Shown here one piece after another: positions 26,767 to 53,370 of a stretch of DNA of 64,000 bases. The translations under genes and the position numbers were made by a program. Within the stretch, counting starts at the first letter, position 1; each line of letters starts with the position of its first letter. The stretch is from Micromonospora peucetia (GTDB lineage Bacteria > Actinomycetota > Actinomycetes > Mycobacteriales > Micromonosporaceae): NCBI RefSeq assembly GCF_900091625.1, contig NZ_FMIC01000002.1, positions 5,394,001 through 5,458,000 of the forward strand. Reading direction: 5' to 3'. The notes under the pieces were generated by a model. The model was not told the origin of the DNA, made no database searches, and saw nothing but the letters and a program-made list of their open reading frames with translations.

Positions 26767-27674
26767 CGGCCACGGACCGCCGTTCGCGCCGGCAGTTGGC
26801 GCTGATGCTGGCGCCGTACCTGGTCGGTCTCGTCGGGCTGGTGCTGCTGCCCGCCGCTGTGACACTGGCGCTGGCCTTCACCGAGTACGACCTGCTGCGC
26901 CCGCCACGCTGGGTGGGGCTGGACAACTTCGCGGCGCTCCTGGCCGACCCGGTGTTCCGGGTGTCGCTGACCAACTCACTGGTCTTCGCGCTGGTGGCCG
27001 TACCGCTGCGGGTGCTCTTCGCCCTCGGCCTGGCGCTGCTGCTGCACCGGCGTGCGGTCGGCGTCGGCAGCGCCCGCACCGCGGCGGTGCTGCCGACCGC
27101 GGTGCCGGAGATCGCCTACGGGCTGCTCTGGCTGTGGCTGCTCAACCCGCTGTACGGCCCGGTCAACCAGCTGCTTCGCACCGGTGGCGAGAACGGCCTG
27201 ACCGCGCTGGGACGCACCCCGCCGCAGTGGCTCACCGATCCGACCGACGCCCGCGCGGCGATCATTCTGATGAGCCTCTTCACCATCGGGGAGACCTTCG
27301 TGGTGCTGCTGGCCGCCCGCCGCGCGCTGCCCCGCGACGTCTACGAGATGGCGGCGATCGAGGACGCCACCGGCTGGGACGTGTTCCGACGGGTCACGCT
27401 GCCGCTGATGGCGCCGGTGCTCGGGCTGCTGGCGGTGCGCGACGCCATTCAGAGCCTGCACTTCTCCTTCGTGCCGGCCTTCGTGGTCACCGACGGCGGC
27501 CCGCCCCCGTACGCCACCACCTACCTGTCGCTGTTCGTCTACCGCACCGGCTTCGAGTATCTGCGCTACGGCTACGCCGCCGCCGCGACCCTGGTGATGA
27601 TCCTGCTGACCGTGGCGGCGGTGCTGGTGCAGTGGCGGCTGATCCGCCGCTACCGGGCCTTCTACCGGCTGTGA
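26763..27674 (+). CDS. Sugar ABC transporter permease, MalF type
   Basis: Permease of 303 aa that pairs with the MalG-type protein. The first helix is LALMLAPYLVGLVGLVLLPAAV. The family segment FTEYDLLRPPRWVGLDNF follows. The EAA loop is DVYEMAAIEDATGWDVFRRVTLPLM. GTG start overlaps the ATPase stop by 4 bp. The gene order propeller-G-SBP-K-F encodes a complete importer. The substrate could be a glycan released by the secreted propeller protein (inference). Confidence 0.92.
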   Translation: MTATDRRSRRQLALMLAPYLVGLVGLVLLPAAVTLALAFTEYDLLRPPRWVGLDNFAALLADPVFRVSLTNSLVFALVAVPLRVLFALGLALLLHRRAVGVGSARTAAVLPTAVPEIAYGLLWLWLLNPLYGPVNQLLRTGGENGLTALGRTPPQWLTDPTDARAAIILMSLFTIGETFVVLLAARRALPRDVYEMAAIEDATGWDVFRRVTLPLMAPVLGLLAVRDAIQSLHFSFVPAFVVTDGGPPPYATTYLSLFVYRTGFEYLRYGYAAAATLVMILLTVAAVLVQWRLIRRYRAFYRL

Positions 27675-37383: not shown

Positions 37384-37480
37384 GTTCCATTCCTCGACGT
37401 TTCGGGTCAACGTTCGGACATGGCAGTGCCGGTGATTCCCGATAGGATGAGTATTCCGCAGCGGAACGGAGGTCCCGGTG

Positions 37481-39445
37481 ATGTACCGGGTCGAGCGCGC
37501 CATCGCTTTCGTGCTCGGTCGACGCGACGCCGACCGCGTGGGGCTGGCCTTCCTGGTCGGGGAGCGCCTGATGATCACCTGCGCCCATGTGGTCAATGTT
37601 GCGCTCGGCCGACCGGCGCGGCACGCGGAGCCGGTTCCGAGGAACACCCGCGTCTCCCTGCATTTTGCGCTGCTCGGGCCGGCGAACAGTTGGATCGAAC
37701 GCAGCGCCGAGGTGATGGCGTGGTTGCCCACCGGCGAGAACTTCGACGTGGAGGACGTGGCGGTGCTCCGGCTCGGTGAGGGCCTGAGCGGCAGCGGCGC
37801 GGAACCGCTGCGCATCAAGGCGGACCTGAAGGACCGCTACAACGCCGCGGTGCAGATGTGGGGGCCGGGGCACGGGCGTGACCTCGGGCGGCACGTACAG
37901 GGCAGTCTGCTCGGCGCGGTCGGCAAGCATCGGTTGCAGGTCGACGAGGTGGTGCACCAGGTCTTCCGGGTGCGGTCCGGGTTCAGCGGAGGGCCGGTCT
38001 GGGATCCGTCGACCTCCCTCGTGTTCGGCATGCTCCAGGCGATCACCACGGACGAGTCCGCCGAGGTGCTGGTGCTCGACGGCGCCCTGTTGGAGCGGGC
38101 ACTGGCGGCGGTCGCGACTGCACGTCCCGGCCTGGCGCTGCTGCACGACCACGGCGAGGTGCACTACGACGGCAGCCACTACACATTGCGACAGCGCCGG
38201 CTGCTGCGCCACGGCGGAGGCAGTCCCCGCGCAAAGTACGAGATGAAGGTGTCGGTGGGTCGTTTCCTCAACGATGAGGCATCCCGCAACCTACGACACC
38301 ACGCACGGCATCCGCTCAGTGTCGGCAATCCCGTCCGAGACATCGACCTCCAGGCTTGGTGCACCGTCGACGATCTGCGAAGGTCGATGGACGTCAAGGC
38401 GACCAAGGTACGCCATGAGGAGATCAACTTTGATCTGTGCTTCCCCGGGTCGGGGTTACTGACCCCTGGCCAGCAGGCGATCATCGAGTATCAGTACCGG
38501 GTGAGCGACGAGATCTGGGGGCAGTGGTACAAACGCAACGTCAGGCCCAACACCGACCGGCTCTCCATCGAGGCGCACCTGCCGGCCGAACTGGAACCGG
38601 AGTGCTGGGGCATGACCTCGCTGCCGTCGGAGACGGACCTGGAGCCGCTTTCCGACGTCGAGACGCGGGTGGAGGGCGACCGGATCGTCTACTCCTGGGA
38701 CCGCACCGCCGAGGAGGAGAGCCTCGCCGAGGAACGTCGCATCCGACTGGACTGGTTCTTCTGGCGCCGCGTCCCGGACAGCAGTGAGTGCGACGACGCG
38801 GCCAGCGTGTTGCGGCAGTTCGGCATCCGGCAGCTGCGCGAGCCGGCACGCGGGCGTGAGTCGTCGAACCTGCCGGCGAGGACACGGCTCATCGACTTCG
38901 AGTCGCCGAACGACCGGCGGCTGACCGTCCGGGTGCTCGCCCACCTGCGGCGGGTGGCCGGCTGGGTGAACCGGTACCACGCGTTCAAGCCGGAGGTGAG
39001 CATGGGGATAGCGGCGCCGCAGCTCGGCATGGCGTACGCCATCGCCATCGTCCGGCAGCCGGGCTCGCCCGACTACCTTGAGCTGGTCAATCCGAGCGTC
39101 GTCGAGCGGACCGACGAGGAGGTCCTGGATTTCGAGGGCTGCCTCAGCTTTTTCGACGTGCGGGGCCGGGTCCTGCGGCCCTACGGTTTGCGCGTCCGCC
39201 ACCGGACGGCGCAGGGGGGTGACCGGGACGTGGTCCTGACCGGGGCACTGGCCCGCAGCGTGGCCCACGAGATCGACCATATTGGCGGCAAGGTCTACAC
39301 CGACACCGACCGGATGCCGAGCGACGAGGCTCCGGTCGGCGTGCGGCAGTACCGTCAGCTCCGCGAACGCGACCGGTTCACGCCGCCGGCGCCTCCGGAA
39401 CGGCTGACCTGGCGGGCGGAGGAGCCTCGGCACGCCGCCAGGTGA
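37481..39445 (+). CDS. Trypsin-like serine protease fused to a peptide deformylase
   Basis: A 654-aa multidomain protein with no signal peptide, so probably cytoplasmic. Residues 1-215 are a trypsin-like protease with the triad His36 (TCAHVV), Asp92 (VEDVAVLRL) and Ser169 (SGFSGGPV). Residues ~250-430 are a beta-rich domain I cannot name. Residues ~470-625 are a peptide deformylase: GIAAPQ at 509-514, EGCLS at 552-556 (metal Cys554) and HEIDH at 596-600, with normal spacing. All catalytic residues of both enzymes are present. ATG 37481 has GGAGGT 7 bp upstream (a GTG lies 3 bp earlier). Housekeeping deformylases are about 170-200 aa and unfused. It converges on and overlaps the Trypco1 gene. 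Confidence 0.9.
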   Translation: MYRVERAIAFVLGRRDADRVGLAFLVGERLMITCAHVVNVALGRPARHAEPVPRNTRVSLHFALLGPANSWIERSAEVMAWLPTGENFDVEDVAVLRLGEGLSGSGAEPLRIKADLKDRYNAAVQMWGPGHGRDLGRHVQGSLLGAVGKHRLQVDEVVHQVFRVRSGFSGGPVWDPSTSLVFGMLQAITTDESAEVLVLDGALLERALAAVATARPGLALLHDHGEVHYDGSHYTLRQRRLLRHGGGSPRAKYEMKVSVGRFLNDEASRNLRHHARHPLSVGNPVRDIDLQAWCTVDDLRRSMDVKATKVRHEEINFDLCFPGSGLLTPGQQAIIEYQYRVSDEIWGQWYKRNVRPNTDRLSIEAHLPAELEPECWGMTSLPSETDLEPLSDVETRVEGDRIVYSWDRTAEEESLAEERRIRLDWFFWRRVPDSSECDDAASVLRQFGIRQLREPARGRESSNLPARTRLIDFESPNDRRLTVRVLAHLRRVAGWVNRYHAFKPEVSMGIAAPQLGMAYAIAIVRQPGSPDYLELVNPSVVERTDEEVLDFEGCLSFFDVRGRVLRPYGLRVRHRTAQGGDRDVVLTGALARSVAHEIDHIGGKVYTDTDRMPSDEAPVGVRQYRQLRERDRFTPPAPPERLTWRAEEPRHAAR

Positions 39446-39755
39446 GGTTCACCTTGAACGTCGCTTCGGCGGTGCCCTTCGTGAAGATCAGACCCGTCTC
39501 CCCGCCCACCGTCAGCCCCAGCTCGACGGAGATCTCGTCGGGGGCGGACGCTGCCGCCCGCAGCCCGGCGACCACCGTACGCACGGCGGGCAGCACCTTC
39601 TCCAGGGAACTGGTCAGCGTGACCGCGGCCAACGGGGCGCGCCCGTCGCCCGCCGCCACCAACTCGATGTCCCCGAGATCCCGGCGCTCGGCCTCGACCT
39701 CGACGTACTCGTCGCTGCCGTCAGCGACCGGAACCTTGAGAATCAGCGTGGCCAT
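39378..39755 (-). CDS. Trypco1-type (trypsin-co-occurring, CU044_2847 family) protein
   Basis: A 125-aa single-domain protein: ATLILKVPVADGSDEYVEVE at the start, SSLEKVLPAVRTVVAGL helix, DEISVELGLTVGGETGLIF, and a final FKVNLTW strand, followed by a Pro/Ala tail. Proteins of this type are found beside trypsin-like proteases in actinobacterial conflict loci and are thought to be adaptors. Here the adjacent gene indeed encodes a trypsin-like protease. Its last 68 bp overlap the 3' end of that gene on the other strand. GGAGGT lies 3 bp before the ATG. The next 246 bp upstream hold no gene. Confidence 0.85.
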   Translation of the reverse strand: MATLILKVPVADGSDEYVEVEAERRDLGDIELVAAGDGRAPLAAVTLTSSLEKVLPAVRTVVAGLRAAASAPDEISVELGLTVGGETGLIFTKGTAEATFKVNLTWRRAEAPPPARSAVPEAPAA

Positions 39756-40001
39756 TCGACCTCCGTGCGTCGGCGGTGCCAGGGGGTGCCGAGGGCAGTC
39801 AGCAAGGTGTAACAGGTCAGGGCCGCGAGCGGTAGCCATCCGACGGCTTCCTTGCAGCGGCGCGTCCCGTTGCCGGCGGTGACCTGTCGCCGGCTGCGCG
39901 TTGGGCGGCACCCAGCTGGAGACGTTCATGAACCTGGAGCGCCGGCTGGACGGCTGAGCCGCGCCGTCGCCGACGGGCGGGGTACTCGGCAGAAGCCCCG
40001 C

Positions 40002-42368
40002 TCAGGCCGGCGCGTCGCTGCCCACCAGGCGGGCGTCCGCCGCTGCCTGAGCGTCGGCGTCCCCCGCCTCCTCGCACACGCCCGCCGCGTCCGCCCAGTG
40101 CCGTCGGGCCTCGTCGGCGTCGCCGAGGGCCGCTGCCGCGTCGCCCAGGTGCAGCAGCGTCCGCCCCAGGCCGGACGTCGGTCGCCCGTCGCGCAACCGC
40201 AGGCTCTCCGCCAGCATCTCGTACGCCTGCCGGGCCTGCGCCGGCGCTGAGGTCAACAGTGCGGCACCCGCGTTGAGTAGCGCGGCGGCCCGGTTCGTCG
40301 GGTCGGCCACCGAGTCGTACTCGCGCAGCGCCGCCCGCCACGACTGCGCCGCGTCGAGGTGCTCGCCGAGCCCGGCGTGCACCAGCACCAGGTTGGTCAG
40401 CGCCGCCGCGTAGCCCCGGGCGTCGCCGAGCGTCCGGAAGGCGTTCGCCGCCCGGACCAGGTGGTGGTGCGCGACGGCCAGCTCGCCCCGGGCCAGCCGG
40501 GCGGCGCCCAGCCCGAGGTCGGTCAGCGCGTGCCCCGCCCGGTCCGCCCCGGAACGGTGCCGCCGCGACAGCTCCAGATGCTCCACCGCGTCGTCGAGCT
40601 GCCCCAGGTCCAGCAGCACCAGGCCGAGGTTCATCCGCGCCTGCGCGGTGCCGCGCCGGCCCCGCTCCGCCACCGCGAGGCTGAGCGCCGTCGCCGCCCC
40701 CTGCGGGTCGTGCCGGCGGCGGCGCAGCACCCCCAGCTCGTTGTGCGCCCAGCCGGCGATCTCCGGCCGGTCGTCGGCCGTGGGGGTGGCGAGCACGGTC
40801 CGGCACACCTCCGCCCACTCGTCGAGCCGTTCGGCGTGGGCGAGCCACCCGCACAGCGCCACCGCCAGCCGGAACCACCAACGGCGCACCCGGCGCGGCA
40901 GGGTCTCCGCCGCGCCCGCCGGCACCCGCACCACGGCCAGCAGCAGCTCCTGGTGCAGGTCGAACCAGCCGTACGGGTCGTGGTCCAGCGCCAGGGTCGG
41001 CTCCCGGTCCGGCGAGCCGGACACCGCGAGGCTCGCGGCGTGCCGCTCCGCCCGCCGGGCCAGGTGCCGGGTGAGCCGGGCCTGCGCCGCGACCCGCCGC
41101 CGCGCCGGCTCCGCGTCGCGCAGGTGCATCCGGGCGTACGGGGCCAGCAACGGGCGCACCTCGTAGCGGTCACCGGGCGCGCCGGTGACGAACCCGCCGG
41201 TGGCCAGCTCGTGCAGCAGGGTGGCCACCCGGTCCGGGCGACGCCCGGCGAGCGCCGCGATCGTCGGCCGGTCCAGTGGCACCGGACTGAGCGACATCAG
41301 CCGCCACAACCGCCGCGCCTCGCTGCCCAGCGCGTGGTACGCGGTGTCCCGGGCGGTCACCAGCAGGGTCGCCGGGGACGCGGCGACGTGCTGGTGCGGG
41401 GGCGTGTCGACGGCGCGGCGCAGCGCGTCGCGCACGTCGGCGTGCCGCCACCCGTGCTGGGCCGTACGCCGACCGAGCTCCGCGACGGTGCGGGGCTGCC
41501 GCCCGCAGAGTTCGACGAGGGCGCGTACGGCCGGGTCGGTGCGCGGGTCCGGGCGGTGCGGCCGGGCGACGGGCGCGGTGGTGCCCGCGGCGGCGAACAG
41601 CTCGACGGCGTCGTCGGCGCCCGGCTCGGCGATCCCGTGCGCCACCACCCCGTCCAGCGCGGCCAGTGCTTCCGTGCCGGCCAGCAGCAGGCGGCACGTC
41701 CGCGCGGTCGGGGGCAGCAGCGCTCGGACCTGAGCCGGGTCGTCCACGTTGTCCAGCACCACCAGGACCGCCCGGCCGTCGAGCTTGCCGCTCAGCTCGT
41801 CGGCGGCGTCGGCGAGGTCGTCGGCGCGACCCGACGCCGGCGGCCGGGTGCCGAGGATCCGGGCCAGCGCGGTCAGCACCTGCCGGGCGTCCTGCCGCCG
41901 GCCGCCCCGGCGCAGGTCCAGATAGTACTGGCCGTCGGGGAAGTCCTGGCGGCACAGGTTGGCGGCCTGGACGGCGCAGGACGAGGTGCCCACGGCCCGC
42001 CGGCCGACCACCGCGACCGCGTGCTCCTTCTCCAGCAGGTCGATGATCGCGTCGACGTGCCCGGCCCGCCCGGTGAATCCGGCCGGCCACGGCAGGGTGG
42101 GCGCACCGACGGCGGGGGTGGCCCCGGGGTCGTCCGGCGTCGGAGCCTGCTGCCGCTGGCGGCGCCATTCCACGAGGACGGCGGCGGCGAGGCCGAGCAC
42201 TATCACCCCGGCGCTGGCCGAGCCGAGCTGGGCGACGGAGAGCTCGGAGAGCAGGTTGCCGGTCACGTTGCCGAGCACCGCGCTGACCGTCCCGCCGACC
42301 ACACCGCCGATCGCCAGCAGCAGGCTCAACCGGCGGGGAGCCCGGGGGCGGCGGGCCGGCCCGGTCAC
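40002..42368 (-). CDS. Membrane-anchored NB-ARC/STAND-like TPR protein with degenerate P-loop
   Basis: A 788-aa protein. Two N-terminal membrane helices (about 14-36 and 50-67) are followed by an NB-ARC-like module: FTGRAGHVDAIIDLL (98-112), P-loop position GRRAVGTSS (122-130) and Walker B VLVVLDNVDD (201-210). The invariant P-loop Lys is Thr, and the usual TSR-type sensor is LLLAGTE, so ATP hydrolysis is doubtful. A winged-helix-like segment and TPR-type helical repeats fill about residues 470-788. GTG start overlaps the permease stop (GTGA), coupling it to the degenerate ABC operon. Probably a signal-transducing scaffold at the membrane. Confidence 0.88.
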   Translation of the reverse strand: MTGPARRPRAPRRLSLLLAIGGVVGGTVSAVLGNVTGNLLSELSVAQLGSASAGVIVLGLAAAVLVEWRRQRQQAPTPDDPGATPAVGAPTLPWPAGFTGRAGHVDAIIDLLEKEHAVAVVGRRAVGTSSCAVQAANLCRQDFPDGQYYLDLRRGGRRQDARQVLTALARILGTRPPASGRADDLADAADELSGKLDGRAVLVVLDNVDDPAQVRALLPPTARTCRLLLAGTEALAALDGVVAHGIAEPGADDAVELFAAAGTTAPVARPHRPDPRTDPAVRALVELCGRQPRTVAELGRRTAQHGWRHADVRDALRRAVDTPPHQHVAASPATLLVTARDTAYHALGSEARRLWRLMSLSPVPLDRPTIAALAGRRPDRVATLLHELATGGFVTGAPGDRYEVRPLLAPYARMHLRDAEPARRRVAAQARLTRHLARRAERHAASLAVSGSPDREPTLALDHDPYGWFDLHQELLLAVVRVPAGAAETLPRRVRRWWFRLAVALCGWLAHAERLDEWAEVCRTVLATPTADDRPEIAGWAHNELGVLRRRRHDPQGAATALSLAVAERGRRGTAQARMNLGLVLLDLGQLDDAVEHLELSRRHRSGADRAGHALTDLGLGAARLARGELAVAHHHLVRAANAFRTLGDARGYAAALTNLVLVHAGLGEHLDAAQSWRAALREYDSVADPTNRAAALLNAGAALLTSAPAQARQAYEMLAESLRLRDGRPTSGLGRTLLHLGDAAAALGDADEARRHWADAAGVCEEAGDADAQAAADARLVGSDAPA

Positions 42369-44128
42369 CGGACGCCCCCGGCGACCAGGCCGGCGACGAG
42401 CTGGCGGCGGGCCAGCACCACCAGCAGCACCGGCAGGATCGAGGCGATGACCGAGCCGGCGGCGAGCGCCCCGCTGTTGGCCGCGAAGCCCCGGGTCTGG
42501 CCGGCGAGGAACAGCCCCAGCGGCAGCGCACCCGGCCCGCTGAACAGCAGACCCACCACCAGGTCGTTCCACACCTGCACGAACTCGAGCACCGCGACGG
42601 CGACCACGGCCGGGCGGTTGTGCCGGGCGAGCAGCCGCAGGGTGCCCCACCAGTGTCGCCCGCCCACCCGGGCCGCCCGCACCTGCTCGGCGGGCAGGTC
42701 CGCGAACGCGTTGCGCAGCACCAGCACGGCGAACGGCACGCCCAGCGCGACGTGCACCAGCGCCAGTCCACGCGCCGTGCCCGAGGACAGCACGACGCCG
42801 AGCACCTCGTTGACCGGCCCGGCGATCACCTGCACCGGCACGATGGCGGCGGCCATCAGCAGCAGCCCGGCGGCCTGGGCGCGTGGCCCGGTCAGCCAGG
42901 CCAGCGGGTACGCGGCGAGCAGCGCGACGCCCAGCACCACGGCGGTGACCGTGGTCGCCAGCACCAGCGTGAAGCCGAGCGTGCGCCACAGCTCGGCGCC
43001 GGTCAGCAGGTCACGGTAGGAGTCGAGGCTGGGCGGGCTCCACCACCAGCCCCGGGCTGCCGCGTCCACCGTGCCGTGCAGCGAGGTGGCGAGCAGCACC
43101 CCGAGCGGCACCAGCCAGGCGACCGCCGCGCCCGCGACCAGCAGCCGGGTCACCCGCCGTGGCGCCGGCGTCGCCGGATCAGGCTCGGCGGGCACCTGGT
43201 CCCGGGGCGGCGGCCACGCCTGCCGTACGAACAGGGCCGTGACCAGCATGCCGGCGGCCACCGCCACCAGCCACACCACGCCGAGCGCGGCGCCCTCGCC
43301 GGTGGTGGCGCCGTTGGAGGTCTGCCAGACCCGCAGCGCGAGCACCGAGGCCTCGTCGCGCACCGAGCCGGGCGTCATCACCAGGATCAGGTCGAACGTC
43401 CGGGCGGTGCCGAGCGCCGCCAGGGTGAAGACCACCGCCACGGTACGCAGCAGCAGTGGCCGCCACTGCGCGTCCCAGAGCACGTCGCGGCGGTTGCCGC
43501 CGTAGGCGCGGACCGCGTCGGCGAGGCTGGGCGGTACGGCGTCGAGGGCGGCCCGGAACACCAGCACGGCCAGCCCGACCCAGGCCCACACGAACGCGGA
43601 CATCAGCGCCACCGTGACCAGGCCGGGGCCGAGCAGTTGCGGGGCGTCGGCCGCAGACCGGCCGGTCAGCGTCGCGGCGACCAGGGTGGCCAGCCCACGC
43701 CCCGGATCCGGGTCGTACATCAGCCGGAAGGTGACCCCGGTCACCACCAGCGGCAGCGCGGCCGGCACCACCAGGATGAGGCGGACCAGCCCACCCTCCT
43801 GTGAGCGGCGCGAGGCGGCGGCGAGCAGGTAGCCCAGCACGGTGACCACCGCCGGCACCACCAGCGCCCAGAGCAGCGTGCGTCCCACCACGGCCCAGGT
43901 GCCGGGCGCGGCCAGCGCGGTGCGGAAGTGTTCCGCGCCCACCCACCGGCCGTCGGTGGTGACGCTGGCGTGCACGGTACGCACCACCGGCCACGCCACC
44001 AGCCCGCCGAGCAGCAACAGGGCGGGCAGCAGCAGCGCCCAGGTGGCCCCCGCCGCCGGGTAGGCCCGCCCGCGCCGGGGCGGCCCGACGTCGTCGAGGA
44101 CGGCCAACTCGCCCAGGACGCGGCTCAT
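42365..44128 (-). CDS. Fused two-permease protein of a sugar-type ABC transporter (MalF-MalG fusion)
   Basis: A 587-aa protein joining two BPD-transporter permeases. The first half starts with LLLPALLLLGGLVAWPVVRTV and has an EAA-like loop SLADAVRAYGGNRRDVLWDA. A Pro-rich cytoplasmic linker lies at about residues 310-330. The second half starts with LLVAGAAVAWLVPLGVLLATSL and has the loop PAEQVRAARVGGRHWWGTL. Both loops keep a Gly but drift from consensus, and the usual Leu-Pro after the loop is lost. ATGA overlap with the binding-protein gene. The matching ATPase in the operon is degenerate, so active transport is uncertain. Confidence 0.88.
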   Translation of the reverse strand: MSRVLGELAVLDDVGPPRRGRAYPAAGATWALLLPALLLLGGLVAWPVVRTVHASVTTDGRWVGAEHFRTALAAPGTWAVVGRTLLWALVVPAVVTVLGYLLAAASRRSQEGGLVRLILVVPAALPLVVTGVTFRLMYDPDPGRGLATLVAATLTGRSAADAPQLLGPGLVTVALMSAFVWAWVGLAVLVFRAALDAVPPSLADAVRAYGGNRRDVLWDAQWRPLLLRTVAVVFTLAALGTARTFDLILVMTPGSVRDEASVLALRVWQTSNGATTGEGAALGVVWLVAVAAGMLVTALFVRQAWPPPRDQVPAEPDPATPAPRRVTRLLVAGAAVAWLVPLGVLLATSLHGTVDAAARGWWWSPPSLDSYRDLLTGAELWRTLGFTLVLATTVTAVVLGVALLAAYPLAWLTGPRAQAAGLLLMAAAIVPVQVIAGPVNEVLGVVLSSGTARGLALVHVALGVPFAVLVLRNAFADLPAEQVRAARVGGRHWWGTLRLLARHNRPAVVAVAVLEFVQVWNDLVVGLLFSGPGALPLGLFLAGQTRGFAANSGALAAGSVIASILPVLLVVLARRQLVAGLVAGGVR

Positions 44129-45459
44129 CGGCCGCCCCCCGTCGACCGGGCCGCCGCCGCCAGTTGCCCGACGGCCCGGCGGGTGGCCTCACCGGCGGCG
44201 ACTCCGTTCGTGACGTCGGCGAAGAAGTCCTGCATGATCCGCCAGATGCCCACCCCGTCGGAGCCGGTGAACGGGCCCGGCAGGCCGTCGGAGAGGTCGA
44301 AGTGCACCGCCCCGGGTGTGCGCAGCTCGGCGGCGAGGCGTCGACGGACGGGGTCGCGGTAGTCGTCCAGCGGCACGGACACGTTGGGGGAGAGATAGCC
44401 GCCGGCACTCAGCCACGGCTGGAACGTCGAGCCGTCGCTGAGCCAGCGCACCAGTTCCGCCCCGCGGGTCGAGCCGGCGAACGCCACCGCCGCGTCGCCG
44501 CCGATGATCAGCGGGTGGTCGGCGACCCGGGAGCCGGGGAAGCGGAAGGTTTTCAGCTGCTCCGAACCCCGGCGGAACCGGCCGCTGACGTCGTCGACGA
44601 AGTCGGCCTCGAAGAGCATCGTGGCCCGCTGGTGGTACACCACCTGGATCACCGACTCCTCGTACTGGGTGAGCAGGGCCCGGCGCCCGCCGCCCGGGAA
44701 CGCGCCGTCGATGCTCCACAGCTCGGCGAGCCGGTCCAGCGCCGTGTGCGTCGACGGGCTCCGCCAGTCGGCCTCGCCGCGGGCCAGTGCCTCGTAGTAG
44801 CCGGCCGGGGCCACGTCGGCGAGCACGTTCTCGAACCAGTCGGTGAGCACCCAGCCGTCGGCCGCGCCAACGGCCAGCGGCGCCGGGCCGTCGCCCGCCC
44901 GGGCCCGCGCGCCGAGCCGCCGGGTCAGCGTCACGAGCTGGTCCCAGGTGCGCGGTGGCGTGTGGAGCATCGACGGGAAATACCAGAACAGCGACTTGTG
45001 GGCCGCCTTCACCCAGACGCCGTAACGCCGCCCGTCGGCGGAGAGCAGGTCGGCCAGGCCGGGCGGGAGGGCGTAGCTGGCGGCGGGGGTCAGCTCGCGC
45101 AGCCAGCCGCGCCGGGCGTACTCGACAACCAGCCCCGACCTGGGCAGGATCGCCACGTCGGGGCTGGTGCCGGCCAGTTGGCGGGCGCGCAGGAACGCGT
45201 CGATGTCGTTGCCGGCGCTGATCACCTGCACCCCGGCGTCGTAGCCGGCCACGACCTCGCGGAAACGGGCCAGCTCGCCGCCGCTCCACACGACCGCGAC
45301 CTGGACCGCCGGCGGTGCGCCGGAGCAGCCCGCCGCGGCGGTCACGGTAGCCGCGGCGGTGGCCCGCAGCAGGGTACGACGGCTCGGCCGCGCCGCCGTC
45401 GTCACCCAACCTCCCGGCGTCACCCGTCGCGCCGACATCGCCCAGCCCGCCGACGTCAC
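44125..45459 (-). CDS. Sugar-type ABC binding lipoprotein with Tat-like signal
   Basis: Extracellular solute-binding protein, 444 aa from GTG 45459. The export signal has a twin-arginine motif (PSRRTLLRAT), an Ala/Thr-rich core and a lipobox ending AAAGC, so a Tat-exported lipoprotein. The mature domain has the family-1 fold (PDVAILPRSGLVVEYARRGWL, HKSLFWYFPSMLH, DHPLIIGGDAAVAF). GTG 45459 overlaps the ATPase-like gene stop and has GAGGTGG upstream; GTG 45405 would give a shorter, more usual signal length. It is the likely ligand-sensing part of the locus. Confidence 0.87.
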   Translation of the reverse strand: MTSAGWAMSARRVTPGGWVTTAARPSRRTLLRATAAATVTAAAGCSGAPPAVQVAVVWSGGELARFREVVAGYDAGVQVISAGNDIDAFLRARQLAGTSPDVAILPRSGLVVEYARRGWLRELTPAASYALPPGLADLLSADGRRYGVWVKAAHKSLFWYFPSMLHTPPRTWDQLVTLTRRLGARARAGDGPAPLAVGAADGWVLTDWFENVLADVAPAGYYEALARGEADWRSPSTHTALDRLAELWSIDGAFPGGGRRALLTQYEESVIQVVYHQRATMLFEADFVDDVSGRFRRGSEQLKTFRFPGSRVADHPLIIGGDAAVAFAGSTRGAELVRWLSDGSTFQPWLSAGGYLSPNVSVPLDDYRDPVRRRLAAELRTPGAVHFDLSDGLPGPFTGSDGVGIWRIMQDFFADVTNGVAAGEATRRAVGQLAAAARSTGGGR

Positions 45460-46064
45460 TCGTCCACCTCGGCGGCGACCGGCACGTCGGCCAGGGCGGT
45501 CGGGTCGGCCGTGCACACCAGCACGGCCACCCCCGGCGTGTCCGGTGGGGAGAGCCGTTCGAACAGGTCGGTCAGCCGCCCGCCGACGACCGGCCCGGTC
45601 GGCAGGTCGATCACGAGCACCTCGGGCAGGCAGACCACCGCCCGGGCCAGCGCCACCCGGAACCGCTGCGCCTCCGACAGCAGATGCGGGTGCAGCCCCA
45701 ACGTCGGTGCCAGCTCCAGCTGGTCGACCACCGTCGCCGTCCAGGCGTCGGCCACCTCCCGCACCCGCTCCCGCCGGCGCTGGCCGTAGGCGATGTTGCG
45801 GCGCACGGTGAGGTGGGGCAGCAGCGCGCCGCCGGCCGGCACGTAGGCGATGTGGCGCTGTGGCGGCGGCAGGGTGGTCACCTCCCGGTCGCCGACCAGG
45901 ACCCGGCCGGCGACCGGCGCGGCCAGTCCGCTCACCACCCGGGCGACGGCGGTGCCGAGGGGCGGGGCGGCGACCAGGCCGGCGCAGGCGCCAGCGGGGA
46001 CGTCGAGGGTCACCGCGGCGGTGCCGGGCATGGCGACGAGTGCGCACAGTCGTAACGTGGCCAT
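45456..46064 (-). CDS. Degenerate ABC ATPase-like protein (pseudo-ATPase)
   Basis: A 202-aa protein whose frame and spacing match a CUT1 ATPase (GRVLVGDREVTTLPPPQR, IAYVPAGGALLPHLTVRRNI), but every catalytic motif is altered. Walker A is AAPPLGTA with no Lys-Ser/Thr, the Q-loop Gln is Pro, the signature is LSEAQRFR, Walker B is VLVIDLPTG with Leu for the catalytic Glu, and the switch His is absent. No stop or frameshift is present and codon bias is normal, so the gene is maintained. The TOBE domain is missing. ATG 46064 is the best start; a TTG 39 bp upstream is possible. First gene of the coupled operon. Confidence 0.85.
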   Translation of the reverse strand: MATLRLCALVAMPGTAAVTLDVPAGACAGLVAAPPLGTAVARVVSGLAAPVAGRVLVGDREVTTLPPPQRHIAYVPAGGALLPHLTVRRNIAYGQRRRERVREVADAWTATVVDQLELAPTLGLHPHLLSEAQRFRVALARAVVCLPEVLVIDLPTGPVVGGRLTDLFERLSPPDTPGVAVLVCTADPTALADVPVAAEVDE

Positions 46065-46156: not shown

Positions 46157-47170
46157 TCAGGTCGGTGCCCGTCCACCGCTGCCGATCACGGCCGGATGCG
46201 GGGCATAGAGGGCGGCGAGAGCGGTGGCGGTGGCGGCGAGCCGGTCCCGCAGCGCGGCCGGGGCCAGCACCTCCACGTCCGCGCCGAGCCGCAGCAGGTC
46301 GCCGTGGGCGTGGGTGAGCGACTCGATCGGGACGACGGCGGTCACCCAGCCGACGTCGTCGGGCGGCCCGGCGGTGTCGTCCACGGCCGCCACCACCAGC
46401 TCGCTGGCGATCTCCCGGAGCCGGTCCCGACCCCGGGAAGAGAGCCGGATCGTGGCGACGTCACGGTGCAGGCCGGCCCTGAAGCGCACCACGTGCGCCC
46501 GCCACCAGGCGGGCAGGTCGAATCCCGCCGGGCGCGGGAACTCTTCGTCGAGGGTGGTCAGCGACAGGACCTGGTTGACCCGGTAGGTGGCGGGCCCGTC
46601 CCGCCCGGGCCGGCCGGCGACCGTGTACCACCGGCCTCCCTTCAGGACCAGTCCGTAGGGCTCCAGCACCCGGTCGACCTCCCCGGCCCAGCTGCGGTAG
46701 CGCACGGCGATCCGGCGCTGCCGCCAGACCGCCTCGGCCACCTCGGCGAGGTGCGGTGAGGCGTCGCCGTCGGCGTACCAGTTGGGGGTGTCCAGGTGGA
46801 AGCGCTCCTGGATCCGGGCCGCCCGGTCGGCCAGCGCGGGCGGCAGCGCGGCGTGCAGCTTGAGCTGGAGCGCGGCGACCGCCGCCCCGTAGCCCAGCTC
46901 GGCGGCGGGCCCGGGCAGCCCGGCGAGGAAGAGCCGCTCCGCCTCATGGGCGGTCAGCCCGGTCAGCCTCGTCCGCCAGCCGTCGACGAGCTGGTAGCCA
47001 CCCGCGTGCCCGGACTCGCCGTAGAGCGGGATGCCGGCCGCGTGCAGCGACTCGACATCGCGGTAGACGGTGCGGGTGGACACCTCCAGCCGCTCGGCGA
47101 GCTGCGCGGCGGTCATCCGCCCGTGGGCCTGGAGCAGCATCAGGAGGGAGAGCAGTCGACTGGCACGCAT
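46157..47170 (-). CDS. HTH/WYL-domain transcriptional regulator (YafY type)
   Basis: A 337-aa regulator. Residues 1-60 are a DeoR-like HTH (RLLSLLMLLQAHGRMTAAQL, EVSTRTVYRDVESL). Residues ~140-215 are the WYL domain (RQRRIAVRYRSW, VLEPYGLVLKGGRWYTVA, TYRVNQV) and the C-terminal WCX extension follows. WYL domains bind nucleotides or nucleic-acid ligands. It diverges from two small genes across CTGACA-GTAGT-TGTCAG, its likely operator. It lies 92 bp upstream of the pseudo-ATPase operon on the same strand, so read-through or co-regulation is possible. Confidence 0.92.
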   Translation of the reverse strand: MRASRLLSLLMLLQAHGRMTAAQLAERLEVSTRTVYRDVESLHAAGIPLYGESGHAGGYQLVDGWRTRLTGLTAHEAERLFLAGLPGPAAELGYGAAVAALQLKLHAALPPALADRAARIQERFHLDTPNWYADGDASPHLAEVAEAVWRQRRIAVRYRSWAGEVDRVLEPYGLVLKGGRWYTVAGRPGRDGPATYRVNQVLSLTTLDEEFPRPAGFDLPAWWRAHVVRFRAGLHRDVATIRLSSRGRDRLREIASELVVAAVDDTAGPPDDVGWVTAVVPIESLTHAHGDLLRLGADVEVLAPAALRDRLAATATALAALYAPHPAVIGSGGRAPT

Positions 47171-48305: not shown

Positions 48306-48611
48306 TCAGCCGGCCGGGCGCGGTGGGAGCCCGAGTTGCTGGCAGGCCTCCCGGTACATCCGCACCACCTCCTGCCGGATCTGGACGCGCTCGGTCAGCC
48401 GGTGGGCGAACGGCACCCGCACCGGGACCTCGATGTCGTGCGCGGTGACGGCGAACTCCATCCCCTCGGCGTCCAGGCCGGTGGCCCGGGCGCGGGTCGC
48501 GGCCGGTTGCCCGCCGAGCGTGCGGCAGATGAGCAGCGAGTCCTCGGGGTGGTCGTCGTTCATGTGCCGGCAGACGGCGCCGACCACCTCGGGGGTGAAC
48601 GGGGCGGTCAC
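48306..48611 (-). CDS. DUF2470-domain heme-utilisation protein
   Basis: A 101-aa protein matching the DUF2470/HugZ C-terminal heme-binding type: VVGAVCRHMNDDHPEDSLLI, DAEGMEFAVT, VRVPFAHRLTERVQIRQEVVRMY. In this family the HMNDDH segment contributes to heme or iron handling. GTG start overlaps the heme-oxygenase stop (GTGA), placing it at the 3' end of the heme operon. Confidence 0.87.
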   Translation of the reverse strand: MTAPFTPEVVGAVCRHMNDDHPEDSLLICRTLGGQPAATRARATGLDAEGMEFAVTAHDIEVPVRVPFAHRLTERVQIRQEVVRMYREACQQLGLPPRPAG

Positions 48612-49279
48612 GCCGCCACCTCCGCGTCTCCGGCCGGAACGAACCGGGCCAGGTCGGCGAAGACCTCGGTGTTGTGCCGGTACGCCACGAGCACCTCGGC
48701 CCGCAGCGCGGCCCGTCCCTCCTCGTCGAGCGGGAGGTCGTCCAGCCTGGCCCGGTAGGCGTCCTTGTACGCCTTCGGGCTGGTGATCCGGTCGAACCGG
48801 TAGAACGCCGCGCCGGCGTCCCCGGCCAGCCCGTAGTGCCGGGCGACGGACCGGCCGATGTGCAGGCCGCCGGAGAGGTCGCCGAGGTAGCGGGTGTAGT
48901 GGTGGGCGATGAACTGTTCCGGCGAGCTGGCGCAGACCGCGCCGAGGCGCCCGGCGTAGGAGACCGTCGCCGGGCTCGGCTCGATCCGTCCGTGCCAGTC
49001 GGCCCCGAGCAGGAACTCCAGGTCCGCGGCGAGGGCCGGCAGTCGGGTCAGCGCGTCGTCGACGAACGGGCCGGCGACTGGGTCGTGGCGCATCGCCTCG
49101 GCGGCACCCTCCAGTGCCTCGTAGATCACGTGGTGCTGCATCACCAGCGCGGTGTAGCCCGCGCGGTCCAGGTCGCCGGCTACCAGGGCGGAAATGTAAC
49201 GCTGGGACTCGGCGCCCTGGTGGGCCTCCTTGCTGGCGGCCCGCAGTTCGGCCGAGAACGGGGTGCTGGTCGGACTCAT
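48608..49279 (-). CDS. Heme oxygenase (biliverdin-producing, HmuO type)
   Basis: Opens heme to biliverdin, CO and iron in the cytoplasm. At 223 aa it has normal length. The proximal ligand is His20 (SKEAHQGAES) and the distal helix is HHYTRYLGDLSGGLHIG with the flexible Gly-rich kink. The C-terminal AFYRFDRITSPKAYKDAYR is a family block. It lies directly after the heme ATPase gene (4-bp overlap) and so releases iron from heme brought in by HmuTUV. Confidence 0.94.
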   Translation of the reverse strand: MSPTSTPFSAELRAASKEAHQGAESQRYISALVAGDLDRAGYTALVMQHHVIYEALEGAAEAMRHDPVAGPFVDDALTRLPALAADLEFLLGADWHGRIEPSPATVSYAGRLGAVCASSPEQFIAHHYTRYLGDLSGGLHIGRSVARHYGLAGDAGAAFYRFDRITSPKAYKDAYRARLDDLPLDEEGRAALRAEVLVAYRHNTEVFADLARFVPAGDAEVAA

Positions 49280-50163
49280 GTCTCCTCCAGGGTGACGGGG
49301 GGCCGGGCCGGTCGCCGCCGTCGCGGAACGACCAACGGTAGCCGGGTACGTGGGTGTGGCACGACCTCGACGTCGTGCCGGTAGACCTCGCTGAGCAGTG
49401 CTGCGGTGAAGACCTCCGCCGGCGGTCCGGCGGCACGCACCCGGCCGTCGGCGAGCAGGGTGACGGTGTCCGCGTACGCGCCGGCGAGGGTCAGGTCGTG
49501 CAGCACCGCCACCACGGCGTCCCCGGCGCGCGCCCGATCACGGGCGATGCGCATGACCAGTTCCTGGTGGCCGAGGTCGAGGGCCGCGGTCGGTTCGTCG
49601 AGCAACAGCACGGCGGCGCGCTGCGCCAGTGCCCGGGCCAGCGTGACGCGCGCCTGTTCGCCGCCCGAGAGCGACGGGTACCGCCGGTCGGCGAACCGGG
49701 TCACGTCGCAGCGCTCAAGGACGTCGGCGACGGTCGCGTCGTCGCGCTGCTGTTCCGGCCGCCCCGCCCACGGCGCCCGTCCCATCCGCACCACCTCGTC
49801 GACGGTGAACGGGAAGCTCAGCGTGCTGCGCTGGGGTAGCACGGCCCGGCGCATCGCCAGTTCCACCGGCGACCATCCGGCCGGGGGCGACCCGTCGATC
49901 TCGACGGTGCCGGCCACCGCCGGCAGGTCGCCGCTGACGGCCGCGAGCAGGGTGGACTTGCCCGCGCCGTTCGGTCCGACGAGCGCGTGCACCTCGCCGG
50001 CCCGGATCCGCAGGTCGACCCCGTCCAGCACCGGCTGTCCGGTGCGGTCGACGCGCAGGCCGGCGACCCGGACGCGGGTCGTCCCCGGAGGCACCGGCAC
50101 CGGCACGCGGGGCGCAGCCCAGCGACGCGGGCCGCGCGTCAGCCCGCCTTTGAACGGGCTCAT
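49276..50163 (-). CDS. hmuV: Heme ABC transporter ATPase
   Basis: ATPase of a heme importer, 295 aa. Walker A GPNGAGKST at 63-71, Q-loop VLPQRSTLSFPFTVDEVVRMG, signature LSGGEQAR, Walker B VLLLDEPTAALD and switch His (VLHDLTLA) are all intact. An extra Pro/Arg-rich N-terminus of about 30 residues precedes the domain; a shorter start is possible. ATGA overlaps on both sides. Confidence 0.92.
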   Translation of the reverse strand: MSPFKGGLTRGPRRWAAPRVPVPVPPGTTRVRVAGLRVDRTGQPVLDGVDLRIRAGEVHALVGPNGAGKSTLLAAVSGDLPAVAGTVEIDGSPPAGWSPVELAMRRAVLPQRSTLSFPFTVDEVVRMGRAPWAGRPEQQRDDATVADVLERCDVTRFADRRYPSLSGGEQARVTLARALAQRAAVLLLDEPTAALDLGHQELVMRIARDRARAGDAVVAVLHDLTLAGAYADTVTLLADGRVRAAGPPAEVFTAALLSEVYRHDVEVVPHPRTRLPLVVPRRRRPARPPVTLEET

Positions 50164-51248
50164 CCCCAGCCTCCGGCCCGGTTCCGGGTGCGGCGCAGCA
50201 ACCAGAAGAAGGCCGGCCCGCCGACGACCGCGGTGAGCACGCCGAGTGGGAGCTCCTGGTGGGCGACCAGGGTTCGGGCGGCGAGGTCGGCCGCGATCAC
50301 CACGACCGCCCCGCCGAGCGCGCTGGCCGGCAACAGCACGCGGTGCCCCGGACCGGCGACCATGCGGACCAGGTGCGGCACCACCAGACCGATGAAGCTG
50401 ATGATGCCGGTGAAGGCCACGGCCGCCGCACCGAGCAGCGCGGTGACCACGATCATGCGGATCCGTAGCCGTTCGACGTCGACCCCGAGGTGCCGGGCGG
50501 CGGGCTCGCCGAGGGCGAGCAGGTCGAGTCGACGGGCGTCGGCGTACGCGACGGCGAGACCGACCGCCAGGCAGGGCGTGGCCAGCGTGACCGCCGACCA
50601 GTTCGCCGACGCCAGGCTGCCCAGGTTCCAGAAGGCGATGGCCTGCACGCCGGACTCGTCGGCGACGAACATGAGCAGTCCGATCACCGCCCCGGCGACC
50701 GCGTTGACCGCGACGCCGGTCAGGACCAGGGTCACCACCTCGGTCCGGCCACCGGAGCGGGACAGCAGGTAGACGGCGTACGTGGTGGCCAGCCCGCCGG
50801 CGAAGGCAGCGGCGGGCACGGTCCAGCCGCCCAGGACGGTGACCCCGGTGACGATGGCGAGTGCCGCGCCGACCGCCGCTCCGGCGGAGACACCGATGAC
50901 GCCGGGTTCGGCCAGGGGATTGCCGAAGACGCCCTGCATGACGGCGCCGGCGCAGCCGAGCGCGGCGCCCACCACGGCGGCCAGCACCACCCGGGGGAAC
51001 CGGACGATCCAGAGGGCGTTCTCGCCCTGGGGGTTCGCTGGCAGGGTGCCGACGTCCAGGCCGACCCGGTGCAGGACCGAGCCGAGCACCTCGGCGGGGG
51101 AGATCTGGACCTGCCCCCGGCCCGCCGCGACAAGGGCGACCAGCACCAGGGCGGCGCCGAGGCCGGCGAGCAGCGCCGTTCCGCGCCGGGCCGAGCGACC
51201 GGCCGGGGGCCGTACCGTCCGCCGGACGCCGGTGTCGACGCCGGTCAC
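50160..51248 (-). CDS. hmuU: Heme ABC transporter permease
   Basis: FecCD-family permease of 362 aa with about ten membrane helices. Family blocks are VRFPRVVLAAVVGAALGCAGAVMQGVFGNPLAEPGVIGVSAGA, partly listed here as RFPR, GNPLAEP and GVSAGA, and the late GIISFIGLVVPHLVR. GTG start overlaps the HmuT stop (GTGA). It forms the heme or siderophore pore with HmuV. Confidence 0.92.
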   Translation of the reverse strand: MTGVDTGVRRTVRPPAGRSARRGTALLAGLGAALVLVALVAAGRGQVQISPAEVLGSVLHRVGLDVGTLPANPQGENALWIVRFPRVVLAAVVGAALGCAGAVMQGVFGNPLAEPGVIGVSAGAAVGAALAIVTGVTVLGGWTVPAAAFAGGLATTYAVYLLSRSGGRTEVVTLVLTGVAVNAVAGAVIGLLMFVADESGVQAIAFWNLGSLASANWSAVTLATPCLAVGLAVAYADARRLDLLALGEPAARHLGVDVERLRIRMIVVTALLGAAAVAFTGIISFIGLVVPHLVRMVAGPGHRVLLPASALGGAVVVIAADLAARTLVAHQELPLGVLTAVVGGPAFFWLLRRTRNRAGGWG

Positions 51249-52345
51249 GACCGTGCGCCGCAGGAGTGGACGGCCGTGGCGAGGGCCTGCACGGTCCGGC
51301 CGGACCGGGTGCCGAAGGTGAGCAGGGTGCCGTCTTCCATGTCGACGATCCGGCGGGCCGCGCCGGCCGGGGTCTGCGCTACCCCGGGAAGCTTCAGCAG
51401 GCCGTCGACGCCGCCGACGGAGGCGAGCCCGGCGCTCATCACCAGGATCACGTCCGGTGCGGCGTTGATCAGACCTTCGCTGGTCAGCGGGCGGAACTTG
51501 GCCAGTCCGATGGCGCTGCCGGCGTCCACCCCGCCGATTGCCTCGATCATCGCGTCCGAGCCGGCTCCCTCGCCGCCGACCAGGTAGACACCGGCGGTGC
51601 CGCGCAGGTAGAGGAAGGCGATCCGGGGCGCCCTGCCCTCCGGCGCGCTGCGGCGGGCGGCGGCGATCTCGCCCTCGACCCGGGCCACGAGCTGTTCGCC
51701 GGCCGCGGTGACGCCGAGGGCCGCCGCCACCGCGCGGACGTGCCCCGGTACGGCGTCGAGGGTCTGCTCGGCCTCGACGAGGACGACGGGGATACCGGAG
51801 GCGCGTAACTGCCGCAGCACCTCCGGCGGCCCGATGCTGTCGTCGGCGAGCACGACGGTCGGGTTCAGGGCCAGTACCGCCTCGGCGGAGAGGTCGTGCC
51901 CGGCCGGGGTCACGACGGGAAGGTGCGCTGCCGCCGGGAACGTGGTCGAGGTGTCCCGGCCGATGACGTTGTCGCCGAGGCCTAGGCCGAACACGGTCTC
52001 GGCGATCGACCCGTAGAGGTTCACCGGCAGGATGCGGCTGGCGTCGGTGACGGTGACGGTGGTGCCGTCGGCGGAGGTGACGGTGGCCGGAAGGGCCGGT
52101 GTCGGTGCCGGGCGCAACGCGATGACGTCGGTGCTGTCCAGGGTGGCTGTGACCGGCCCGCAGGAGGCGGGGTCCGCCGGCGCGGCTCCGGAGGTGGGCG
52201 CGGAGCAGCCGACGACGGCCCCGCAGAGCAGCGCCAGCAGGGCGGCGGCCGGCGGTGCCGTCGGCGACTTCCTGCGCCATGCCCCGGACCGGGGGAGCGG
52301 GGCATGGCGGGCGGCTGCGCGGGTGGGCCGGATGGTCCCCGTCAC
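51245..52345 (-). CDS. hmuT: Heme-binding lipoprotein of ABC transporter
   Basis: Substrate-binding protein of 366 aa (class III, PBP with rigid helix). A basic n-region (AWRRK) and hydrophobic core end in lipobox AVVGC, giving a membrane-anchored lipoprotein. The mature part shows RILPVNLYGSIAETVFGLG, NPTVVLADDSIGPPEVL and EGAGSDAMIEAIGGVDAG, typical HmuT/BtuF-like blocks. The GTG start overlaps the stop of the secreted-protein gene. It hands heme to HmuU. Confidence 0.9.
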   Translation of the reverse strand: MTGTIRPTRAAARHAPLPRSGAWRRKSPTAPPAAALLALLCGAVVGCSAPTSGAAPADPASCGPVTATLDSTDVIALRPAPTPALPATVTSADGTTVTVTDASRILPVNLYGSIAETVFGLGLGDNVIGRDTSTTFPAAAHLPVVTPAGHDLSAEAVLALNPTVVLADDSIGPPEVLRQLRASGIPVVLVEAEQTLDAVPGHVRAVAAALGVTAAGEQLVARVEGEIAAARRSAPEGRAPRIAFLYLRGTAGVYLVGGEGAGSDAMIEAIGGVDAGSAIGLAKFRPLTSEGLINAAPDVILVMSAGLASVGGVDGLLKLPGVAQTPAGAARRIVDMEDGTLLTFGTRSGRTVQALATAVHSCGARS

Positions 52346-53184
52346 CGGGCCGTCCCTCGGCGGCGCCACCGGCGCAGGCCCAGCAGGGCCGTGACCGCCA
52401 GCGCGAGGGACAGCAGTGCGATGGTCCACCCGCGACCGGTCCCGGTGGCGGCGCTGACCCGGCTGATCGCCGGCTCGGCGGGAGCGGCGCCGGCTACGGC
52501 GGCACCGTCCCCGGCGGTGGTGGCGATCCCCGGCGAGCCGGCGGGGGCGGGGGGAGCGGTCCGGGCCGTGCTGGGGCCTGGCGCGGCGGTGTTGCCCGGG
52601 GCTCCGGTGGAACCCGCCGGGGTGCGACCGGGGGCGACGGTGCCGGCCTGCGTCGGGCGGGAACCGGTCGACGCAGGGGCGGCGGAGCGGGCGAAGGTCA
52701 CCGCGACCCGGACGTCCTGGGAGCGGTCGGCGGCGCGGGTGTGGTCGGCGCGGGTGGCCACCACGCACCGGCGGGTGGTGCAGTCGACGGCGCCGATGGC
52801 CGGGGTGACCCGGAGGGTGACCCGGAACGATCCGCCGGACCCGTACGCAACGGCCAGCCCCTCGCCGTACGAGGGCGGGTTCGACGAGATCCAGTGCGAG
52901 GCCCCGAGCGAGCCGGTCGTGTCGGCGCCGCCGCCGCACGGGCCCGGGGCCTTGCCGGCTCCGTTGTCCACACAGAACGCCACGTAGATGCCCTTGGTGA
53001 CGTCGTACCCGCTGCCGGAGACGGTGACGGTCGCGCCGGAGCTGCCGAGGCCGGTGCTGGGGGTGACGCTGAGCGTCTGACCGCCGGGGCCGCGTCCGGT
53101 GCCCGCGTAGGCGGGGGGTGGAGCGGCGACGACACCCACGGTGATCAGGGTGGCGGCCAGGAAGGCGTGACGCCGTGTTCGCAT
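52342..53184 (-). CDS. Secreted neocarzinostatin-like domain protein with C-terminal membrane anchor
   Basis: Exported protein of 280 aa, first gene of the heme operon. A signal peptide (to about residue 28, APPPAYA) is followed by an Ig-like neocarzinostatin-type domain (LSVTPSTGLGSSGATVTVSG, CVDNGAGKAPGPCGG, DCTTRRCVVATRADHTRAADRSQD). A long Thr/Ala/Pro/Gly linker and a C-terminal helix (IALLSLALAVTALLGL) with RRWRRR follow. ATG 53184 has GAGGAGC. It is probably a surface component of heme capture. An IdeR box lies 42 bp upstream. Confidence 0.87.
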   Translation of the reverse strand: MRTRRHAFLAATLITVGVVAAPPPAYAGTGRGPGGQTLSVTPSTGLGSSGATVTVSGSGYDVTKGIYVAFCVDNGAGKAPGPCGGGADTTGSLGASHWISSNPPSYGEGLAVAYGSGGSFRVTLRVTPAIGAVDCTTRRCVVATRADHTRAADRSQDVRVAVTFARSAAPASTGSRPTQAGTVAPGRTPAGSTGAPGNTAAPGPSTARTAPPAPAGSPGIATTAGDGAAVAGAAPAEPAISRVSAATGTGRGWTIALLSLALAVTALLGLRRWRRRGTAR

Positions 53185-53225
53185 CGGGCTCCTCACGAGA
53201 GCGACGGCCGCGCGGCCGAGCAGAC

Positions 53226-53244
53226 TTAGGTTTGGCTAACCTAA
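53226..53244. promoter_or_regulatory. IdeR/DtxR iron box 1
   Basis: TTAGGTTTGGCTAACCTAA differs from the DtxR consensus (TTAGGTTAGGCTAACCTAA) at one position. It sits next to a minus-strand -10-like TATAAC (53250-53245) upstream of the heme-import operon. Iron-replete repression is expected. Confidence 0.88.
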
Positions 53245-53315
53245 GTTATAAGGCGGCTGCTCACAAGGGGTTGTTCGGTCCAGGTGATCAAACCGAACGC
53301 CGCTGGACCGGATGG

Positions 53316-53334
53316 TTAGGTTTGCCTAACCTTA
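53316..53334. promoter_or_regulatory. IdeR/DtxR iron box 2
   Basis: TTAGGTTTGCCTAACCTTA matches the DtxR consensus at 16 of 19 positions. It lies 37 bp before the HtaA-protein ATG and probably represses it when iron is sufficient. Confidence 0.82.
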
Positions 53335-53370
53335 CTGACCGTCCGTAACGGATCAAGAGAGGGAGTCAGC

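Follow-up and report, generated by a model that had tools for sequence, protein, structure and literature searches.

A conserved ABC importer-type operon with a membrane-anchored pseudo-STAND protein in Micromonospora peucetia: a putative ATP-free ligand sensor

What might a carbohydrate importer do once its ATPase has lost the residues of ATP chemistry, and why should its operon also encode a protein with the build of a nucleotide-driven switch that has lost them too? The question is raised by four genes on the minus strand of a stretch of 64,000 nucleotides from Micromonospora peucetia (RefSeq assembly GCF_900091625.1, contig NZ_FMIC01000002.1, positions 5,394,001 to 5,458,000), hereafter the window, which encode, in this order, a pseudo-ATPase, a binding lipoprotein, a fused permease and an NB-ARC/tetratricopeptide repeat (TPR) protein (Table 1). 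A preliminary description had added two neighbours, a Trypco1 gene on the same strand and a protease-deformylase gene converging on it, and had read all six as a transport-dead ATP-binding cassette (ABC) receptor whose output was the neighbouring pair. The placement of the six genes and the three 4-bp overlaps that join the four minus-strand genes were confirmed by the sequence and by Pfam, the coordinates of the pair agreed with its reported orientation, and the catalytic lysine was indeed absent from both NTPase-type proteins, together with further catalytic residues. The interpretation fared unevenly: conservation across families strengthened the idea that a transport-dead receptor is coupled with the NB-ARC/TPR protein, and the output assigned to Trypco1 and the protease was not upheld. 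On balance, and judging from their sequences, we favor the reading that the products of the four genes make up a single signalling unit at the membrane, which would have arisen from a CUT1-type carbohydrate importer and been turned into an ATP-free ligand sensor.

The best solved-structure matches of the pseudo-ATPase include MalK/AlgS-type ATPases. When the window protein was aligned with 42 relatives, the Walker A lysine, the Q-loop glutamine, the first glycine of the signature, the Walker B glutamate and the H-loop histidine were absent from all 43 sequences, and the same five residues were kept in all five canonical ATPase paralogues encoded by the genome of the window (L082, with a broken frame, was left out of this count; L and G numbers denote loci and genomes). 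With these residues missing throughout, the operon does not encode the competent ATPase expected alongside a CUT1 importer. The conservation of the pseudo-ATPase was highest, at 0.81–0.87 against a mean of 0.63, in alignment segments over residues 71–95, past the Q-loop, the stretch through which MalK-type ATPases make contact with their permease. The protein of the window has no C-terminal regulatory domain; in L090, L091 and L093, where the permeases are about 42% identical to that of the window, the pseudo-ATPases are 372–383 amino acids (aa) long and carry a C-terminal extension of unassigned nature. An ABC ATPase match elsewhere in the window (L129) is about 40% identical to the pseudo-ATPase.

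NB-ARC was not among the Pfam matches of the fourth protein of the window, and its assignment comes from matches to AfsR and to plant NB-ARC and from the homologue in Lentzea, which scored 23.4 bits with Pfam NB-ARC, just below the cut-off of 23.5. The AfsR match spans residues 75–487 and TPR matches were found besides, so that the combination of an NB-ARC/NOD core and sensor repeats that is typical of STAND proteins is present. The P-loop lysine was absent from all 42 NB-ARC proteins, with threonine in its place in 41 and serine in one (L051); the motif reads GxxxxGTS in those 41 and ends with GSS in L051, and five canonical paralogues have GK[ST]. The sensor-1 arginine and the histidine and aspartate of the MHD motif were likewise absent from 41 of 41 aligned proteins; among the canonical paralogues, the lysine and the sensor-1 arginine were present in 5/5 and the MHD His-Asp in 4/5. 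The family therefore lacks the set of Walker A lysine, sensor-1 arginine and MHD motif by which STAND proteins are recognized. For these counts, L047 and L048 were left out altogether, and L051 was left out of the sensor-1/MHD count because its P-loop fell outside the trimming pattern, its lysine position being judged by eye. The NB-ARC domain of the window protein is preceded by two hydrophobic segments, and at a laxer cut-off at least one such segment was seen in 38 of 41 homologues. The three without one were L042, which is disrupted, and L091 and L093, whose start was probably mis-picked, as a hydrophobic stretch sits just upstream. Profile scans with Pfam and NCBIfam recognized no effector domain in the NB-ARC protein and no DNA-binding domain at the cut-off.

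In the binding lipoprotein, R27, R28 and C45 were invariant in all 20 aligned sequences, and the full pattern from twin arginine to lipobox was found in 18 of them. Its solved relatives are mostly oligosaccharide binders, with LpqY among the matches, and its core is strongly conserved across the aligned relatives. Among solved structures, the permease halves have their counterparts in SugA and SugB, from the importer of trehalose, and the solved relatives of binding protein and permease taken together include NagB2, xylo-oligosaccharide binders and SugAB-LpqY; the binding protein and the two MalF/MalG-type permease domains of a CUT1 importer are thus both present, the latter fused here. Source records often annotate the permease as an alpha-glucoside or sugar transporter, which may mislead for this family, and the permease family is also present in Kribbella, Actinopolymorpha and other actinobacteria. 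The parts that bind the ligand and move appear to have been kept, and ATP chemistry discarded, in the ATPase as well as in its NLR-like partner.

We then followed the operon in a genus sample of 121 genomes (that of the window and 120 relatives), searched with the NB-ARC protein at an E value of 1e-40 or better, and in a family sample of 150 genomes drawn from the Micromonosporaceae, searched with the permease. The NB-ARC protein was found in 29 of the 121 genomes, all of the same genus, and a permease match in 18 of the 150 genomes and 13 of their 44 genera. Besides the window, 43 core loci were fetched, 27 from the genus set and 16 from the family set, the latter covering all 18 permease-positive genomes minus G000 and G069, which were already in hand; two extra genus pieces hold a relic (L047) and a contig end (L048). 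The order of the four genes was kept in all 27 genus loci with context, and the NB-ARC gene followed the permease in every one of the 43 loci whose contig allowed this to be seen. The operon was the same in the 16 family regions down to a permease identity of 41%, with the contig of L092 ending inside the permease and the NB-ARC copy of L090 found only with a nearer query; both loci were left out of the overlap count for the permease and NB-ARC genes. A scan of named genomes found 181 relatives, of which the best 80 were kept as 73 loci, many of them from genomes of the earlier sets, and gave 57 loci outside Nocardia; all four genes were held by 50 of these, including loci in Lentzea and Umezawaea (Pseudonocardiaceae), and the other seven were cut by contig ends. 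The recurrence of this order and of the overlaps at dozens of loci indicates that the operon is not a product of chance. The gene clusters on either side are common to many Micromonospora loci and mostly not to other genera, and the core persists. In L040 and in part of Micromonospora, the NB-ARC gene is followed downstream by another ABC ATPase-like gene, more distantly related, and by one more conserved gene.

Farther afield, searches with single proteins found little. A class-level draw with the permease of the window as a query (E 1e-60) gave no match in 295 genomes besides the window's own, and two broader draws of 296 and 396 genomes, partly shared and made with single-protein queries, matched only G000, G360 and G478. 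The locus in G360 (L221) is of the Nocardia type described below; in that of G478 (L222), the permease is split over two frames and accompanied by a binding protein, and the ATPase and NB-ARC profiles gave no match there. Within Micromonospora, the locus looks to have been inherited with loss, as its position is largely shared and a deletion was seen once: in G061 (L047), flanking genes are still present to the left and right, and of the operon no more than a relic of the NB-ARC gene is left, the pattern expected after a deletion. The ratio of nonsynonymous to synonymous substitution rates (omega) was below 1 in all 47 comparisons made over 12 hand-chosen pairs, with a range of 0.036–0.525, indicating that both nucleotide-binding domains are under purifying selection despite their lost catalytic residues. 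The letters that replace these residues, moreover, recur across genera.

A reduced form of the operon was found in Nocardia, where all 16 loci (L202–L217) showed by tblastn a binding protein, a permease and then a TPR protein. A plain motif count gave overlaps in 16/16 loci at both junctions; after a reading-frame check, the overlap of the binding-protein and permease genes was found to open a permease frame in 15/16, and that of the permease and TPR genes to open a frame of 559–605 aa in 10/16. None of the 10 TPR proteins readable from the overlap contained the pattern GxxxxG[KT][ST], and nine of them, L208 being the exception, had hydrophobic segments near the N-terminus. No ABC ATPase was found on the coding strand of the 16 loci in about 4 kb searched upstream of the binding protein (less than 2 kb in L205), and the only such match, in L210, lies on the opposite strand. 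The place of the pseudo-ATPase gene is taken by an upstream SPFH/Band_7 gene in 9/16 loci. In L204, neither the permease nor the binding protein gave a Pfam match at 0.1, but the core of that binding protein, AADGWVLTD, is still readable. In Nocardia, a permease and a membrane-anchored TPR protein may be enough. There is also a broader proposal, which we put forward tentatively and with less assurance than the sensor reading itself: the operon may represent a new class of bacterial receptor, in which an ABC importer became an ATP-independent sensor that signals to a membrane-bound pseudo-STAND/TPR adaptor, and whose nucleotide domains would be mere scaffolds in Micromonosporaceae and Pseudonocardiaceae and dispensed with in Nocardia.

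The operon, the lost residues and the overlaps can be read in the DNA itself, and from them we infer the following relay. The lipoprotein would bind a sugar-like ligand outside the cell, and the permease would shift its shape as an importer does, but a full cycle powered by ATP would be beyond it. On the inner face of the permease, the docked pseudo-ATPase would relay or lock this state; the pseudo-STAND protein anchored alongside would then be set free or change its arrangement, which would allow its TPR array to recruit a partner. In Nocardia, the signal would pass straight from the permease to the membrane-anchored TPR protein. The scheme resembles the way in which MalK retains MalT while the transporter is idle, minus ATP and a DNA-binding output.

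This couple is the nearest precedent. In Escherichia coli, MalK keeps MalT, a STAND/TPR protein, bound at the membrane as long as sugar is not being transported (PMC10427625, PMC6468293); the ATPase of a CUT1 importer there retains a STAND/TPR protein and responds to the transport state, an arrangement similar to the one proposed here. MalK and MalT, however, both work as NTPases; MalT carries a DNA-binding domain, and MalK makes use of a C-terminal contact domain. Here both nucleotide domains are dead, the pseudo-ATPase of the window lacks such a C-terminal domain, no DNA-binding domain was recognized at the cut-off, and the STAND-like protein has membrane segments of its own. The operon would work much as the MalK-MalT couple does but, with the catalytic residues and the C-terminal domain of MalK missing, is not a member of it. 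The closest solved permease relatives belong to the mycobacterial SugABC-LpqY, whose LpqY is among the binding-protein matches; in that system SugA and SugB are chains of their own, SugC is an active ATPase, and a STAND partner is not known. AfsR is the best solved relative of the NB-ARC/TPR protein, and HaaT its best NCBIfam match, far under the cut-off. The protein described here differs from both in its membrane segments and dead P-loop; AfsR itself includes a DNA-binding region, and its P-loop is intact. A catalytically inactive STAND domain is also found in the iSTAND ternary systems, a subset of which is located at the membrane (eLife 2020, e52696; PMC7159879). The defining partners of those systems, however, are MoxR and vWA, and actinobacteria lack them almost entirely (PMC7159879), whereas the partners here are ABC proteins; neither MoxR nor vWA was found among the 17 frames of the window scanned with Pfam. 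A literature search found no description of this operon, with most subscription papers lying outside its coverage. If the sensor reading is right, transport and signalling, which are mixed in known sensing importers such as MalFGK2-MalT, would seem to be separated here, and the family would offer a natural test of what the STAND nucleotide switch is for.

Several observations weigh against the sensor reading. The contact of MalK with MalT uses the C-terminal domain (PMC6468293), and the pseudo-ATPase of 202 aa lacks it. Most of the same-genus genomes searched do not have the operon, and broken or lost copies occur, namely the relic L047, the fragmented NB-ARC gene of L174, the broken ATPase frame of L082 and the broken binding-protein frame of L042. 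The pairwise distances of the four core proteins correlate closely (r 0.946–0.98 over 38 sequences, without L042, L046–L048, L082, L088, L090 and L092), a correlation that can be explained by shared ancestry alone. In 6/16 Nocardia loci, the permease/TPR overlap opens a frame of just 12–44 aa, and the difference between Nocardia and the other families may reflect either a loss of the nucleotide domains there or their gain elsewhere. Finally, the host also encodes canonical CUT1-type ATPases, which could in principle energize the permease in trans, and in Streptomyces the ATPase MsiK is reported to be shared by CUT1 importers.

These last two points also carry the main alternative, namely that the permease and the lipoprotein make up a functional importer of oligosaccharides, powered by a shared ATPase of the MsiK kind whose gene lies elsewhere, with transport being regulated by the pseudo-ATPase and the pseudo-STAND protein. 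The strong conservation of the binding-protein core would suit such an importer. The operon's own pseudo-ATPase, however, with its conserved segment past the Q-loop, would be expected to fill the docking site that a shared ATPase needs, and the permease of L204, the sole Nocardia permease scanned, is too diverged for a Pfam match. We consider this alternative unlikely, albeit the most serious one.

Anti-phage defence of the STAND type with a surface trigger, a role that the preliminary description had entertained, gained no support and seems improbable. The NB-ARC/TPR architecture and the patchy presence in the genus would be in keeping with it, but the NB-ARC protein has no recognized effector domain, PADLOC gave the four core proteins a single weak match to a generic TPR, and the locus has a largely shared position within Micromonospora, with loss by deletion seen once.

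The six-gene system, in which the ABC-NB-ARC receptor would release a Trypco1 and protease-deformylase response, was rejected after the neighbourhood survey and is now very improbable. In its favor, the six genes lie side by side in the window, as they do in L049, the relative closest to it, and the STAND-type proteins of conflict systems are predicted to work together with trypsin-like proteases (PMC7159879). The pair, however, adjoins the operon in only 2 of 44 loci, the window and L049, that is, beside 1 of the 43 others. The full-length fusion of protease and deformylase occurs in 6 of the 121 genomes, twice beside the operon, three times away from it (G024, G028 and G030) and once, in G036, without any match to the operon. 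In the regions around the fusion in these last four genomes, no match to the ATPase, the binding protein or the permease was obtained, and the sole core-type match, near the fusion of G036, is an NB-ARC paralogue with 29% identity. As the four-gene operon is widespread in the Micromonosporaceae without Trypco1 or the protease, the very finding that the preliminary description had named as fatal to its proposal, the six genes split into two modules. Decay of the importer operon to a functionless remnant, as the lost catalytic motifs and the broken or lost copies might suggest, is equally improbable and was rejected, since omega was below 1 throughout and the replacement letters and overlaps recur across genera, even if single decayed copies exist.

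On its sequence features, the Trypco1 and protease-deformylase pair is a separate convergent module. If Trypco1 starts at the ATG at 39755, its start lies 246 bp beyond the stop of the NB-ARC gene, so that it is not translationally coupled to the operon; with the protease-deformylase gene it overlaps tail-to-tail by 68 bp. Trypco1 converges on the fusion in all six loci (the match in L097 is partial, 44 aa), and the protease and deformylase catalytic motifs that were searched are present in all six fusions; the deformylase half appears intact, and the module is uncharacterized. A paralogue of residues ~218–640 of the fusion is present in almost all of the genomes searched in the genus. In its combination of Trypco1 and a trypsin-like protease, the pair resembles the VMAP Trypco1/trypsin modules (PMC7159879), but differs from them in the fusion of its protease to a peptide deformylase; the word "deformylase" does not occur in the main text of either PMC7159879 or PMC10907252.

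Table 1. Coordinates of the operon, its overlaps and motifs, and the adjoining genes, numbered from the first letter of the window.
Feature	Position	Strand	Basis
Pseudo-ATPase, ABC nucleotide-binding domain-like, CUT1/MalK type, 202 aa	45456..46064	-	Pfam ABC_tran 51.9 bits
Binding lipoprotein, twin-arginine translocation (Tat)-type RR and lipobox Cys	44125..45459	-	Pfam SBP_bac_1
Fused permease, a single chain with two BPD_transp_1-type halves	42365..44128	-	Pfam BPD_transp_1
NB-ARC/TPR protein, putative membrane-anchored pseudo-STAND	40002..42368	-	Pfam TPR_12; AfsR match E 2.5e-39
GTGA overlap, ATPase stop / binding-protein start	45456..45459	-	sequence; 43/43 other loci
ATGA overlap, binding-protein stop / permease start	44125..44128	-	sequence; 41/43 other loci
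GTGA overlap, permease stop / NB-ARC start	42365..42368	-	sequence; 39/41 other loci tested
Former Walker A of pseudo-ATPase, AAPPLGT, lysine absent	45951..45971	-	alignment with five canonical same-genome ATPases
Hydrophobic segment 1 of NB-ARC protein, residues 14-32	42273..42329	-	hydropathy
Hydrophobic segment 2 of NB-ARC protein, residues 48-66	42171..42227	-	hydropathy
Former NB-ARC P-loop, GRRAVGTS, lysine replaced	41982..42005	-	alignment with canonical paralogues
WYL-domain regulator, upstream neighbour, not core	46157..47170	-	Pfam
Trypco1 protein, separate module	39378..39755	-	Pfam Trypco1 74.5 bits
Fusion of a trypsin-like protease and a peptide deformylase, separate module	37478..39445	+	Pfam Trypsin_2 and Pep_deformylase

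The WYL regulator was also tried as a core gene and rejected, as it was found in 19 of the 43 other loci and in 0 of the 15 loci from other genera, and is a neighbour within the same genus only. Elsewhere in the window, an ordinary-looking ABC importer permease match lies at 25707–27674, the window also holding the ABC ATPase match L129. A cluster at 48306–54876 comprises a DUF2470 gene, an ABC ATPase, a FecCD permease, a match to a neocarzinostatin-family domain and an HtaA protein, a combination suggestive of haem uptake.

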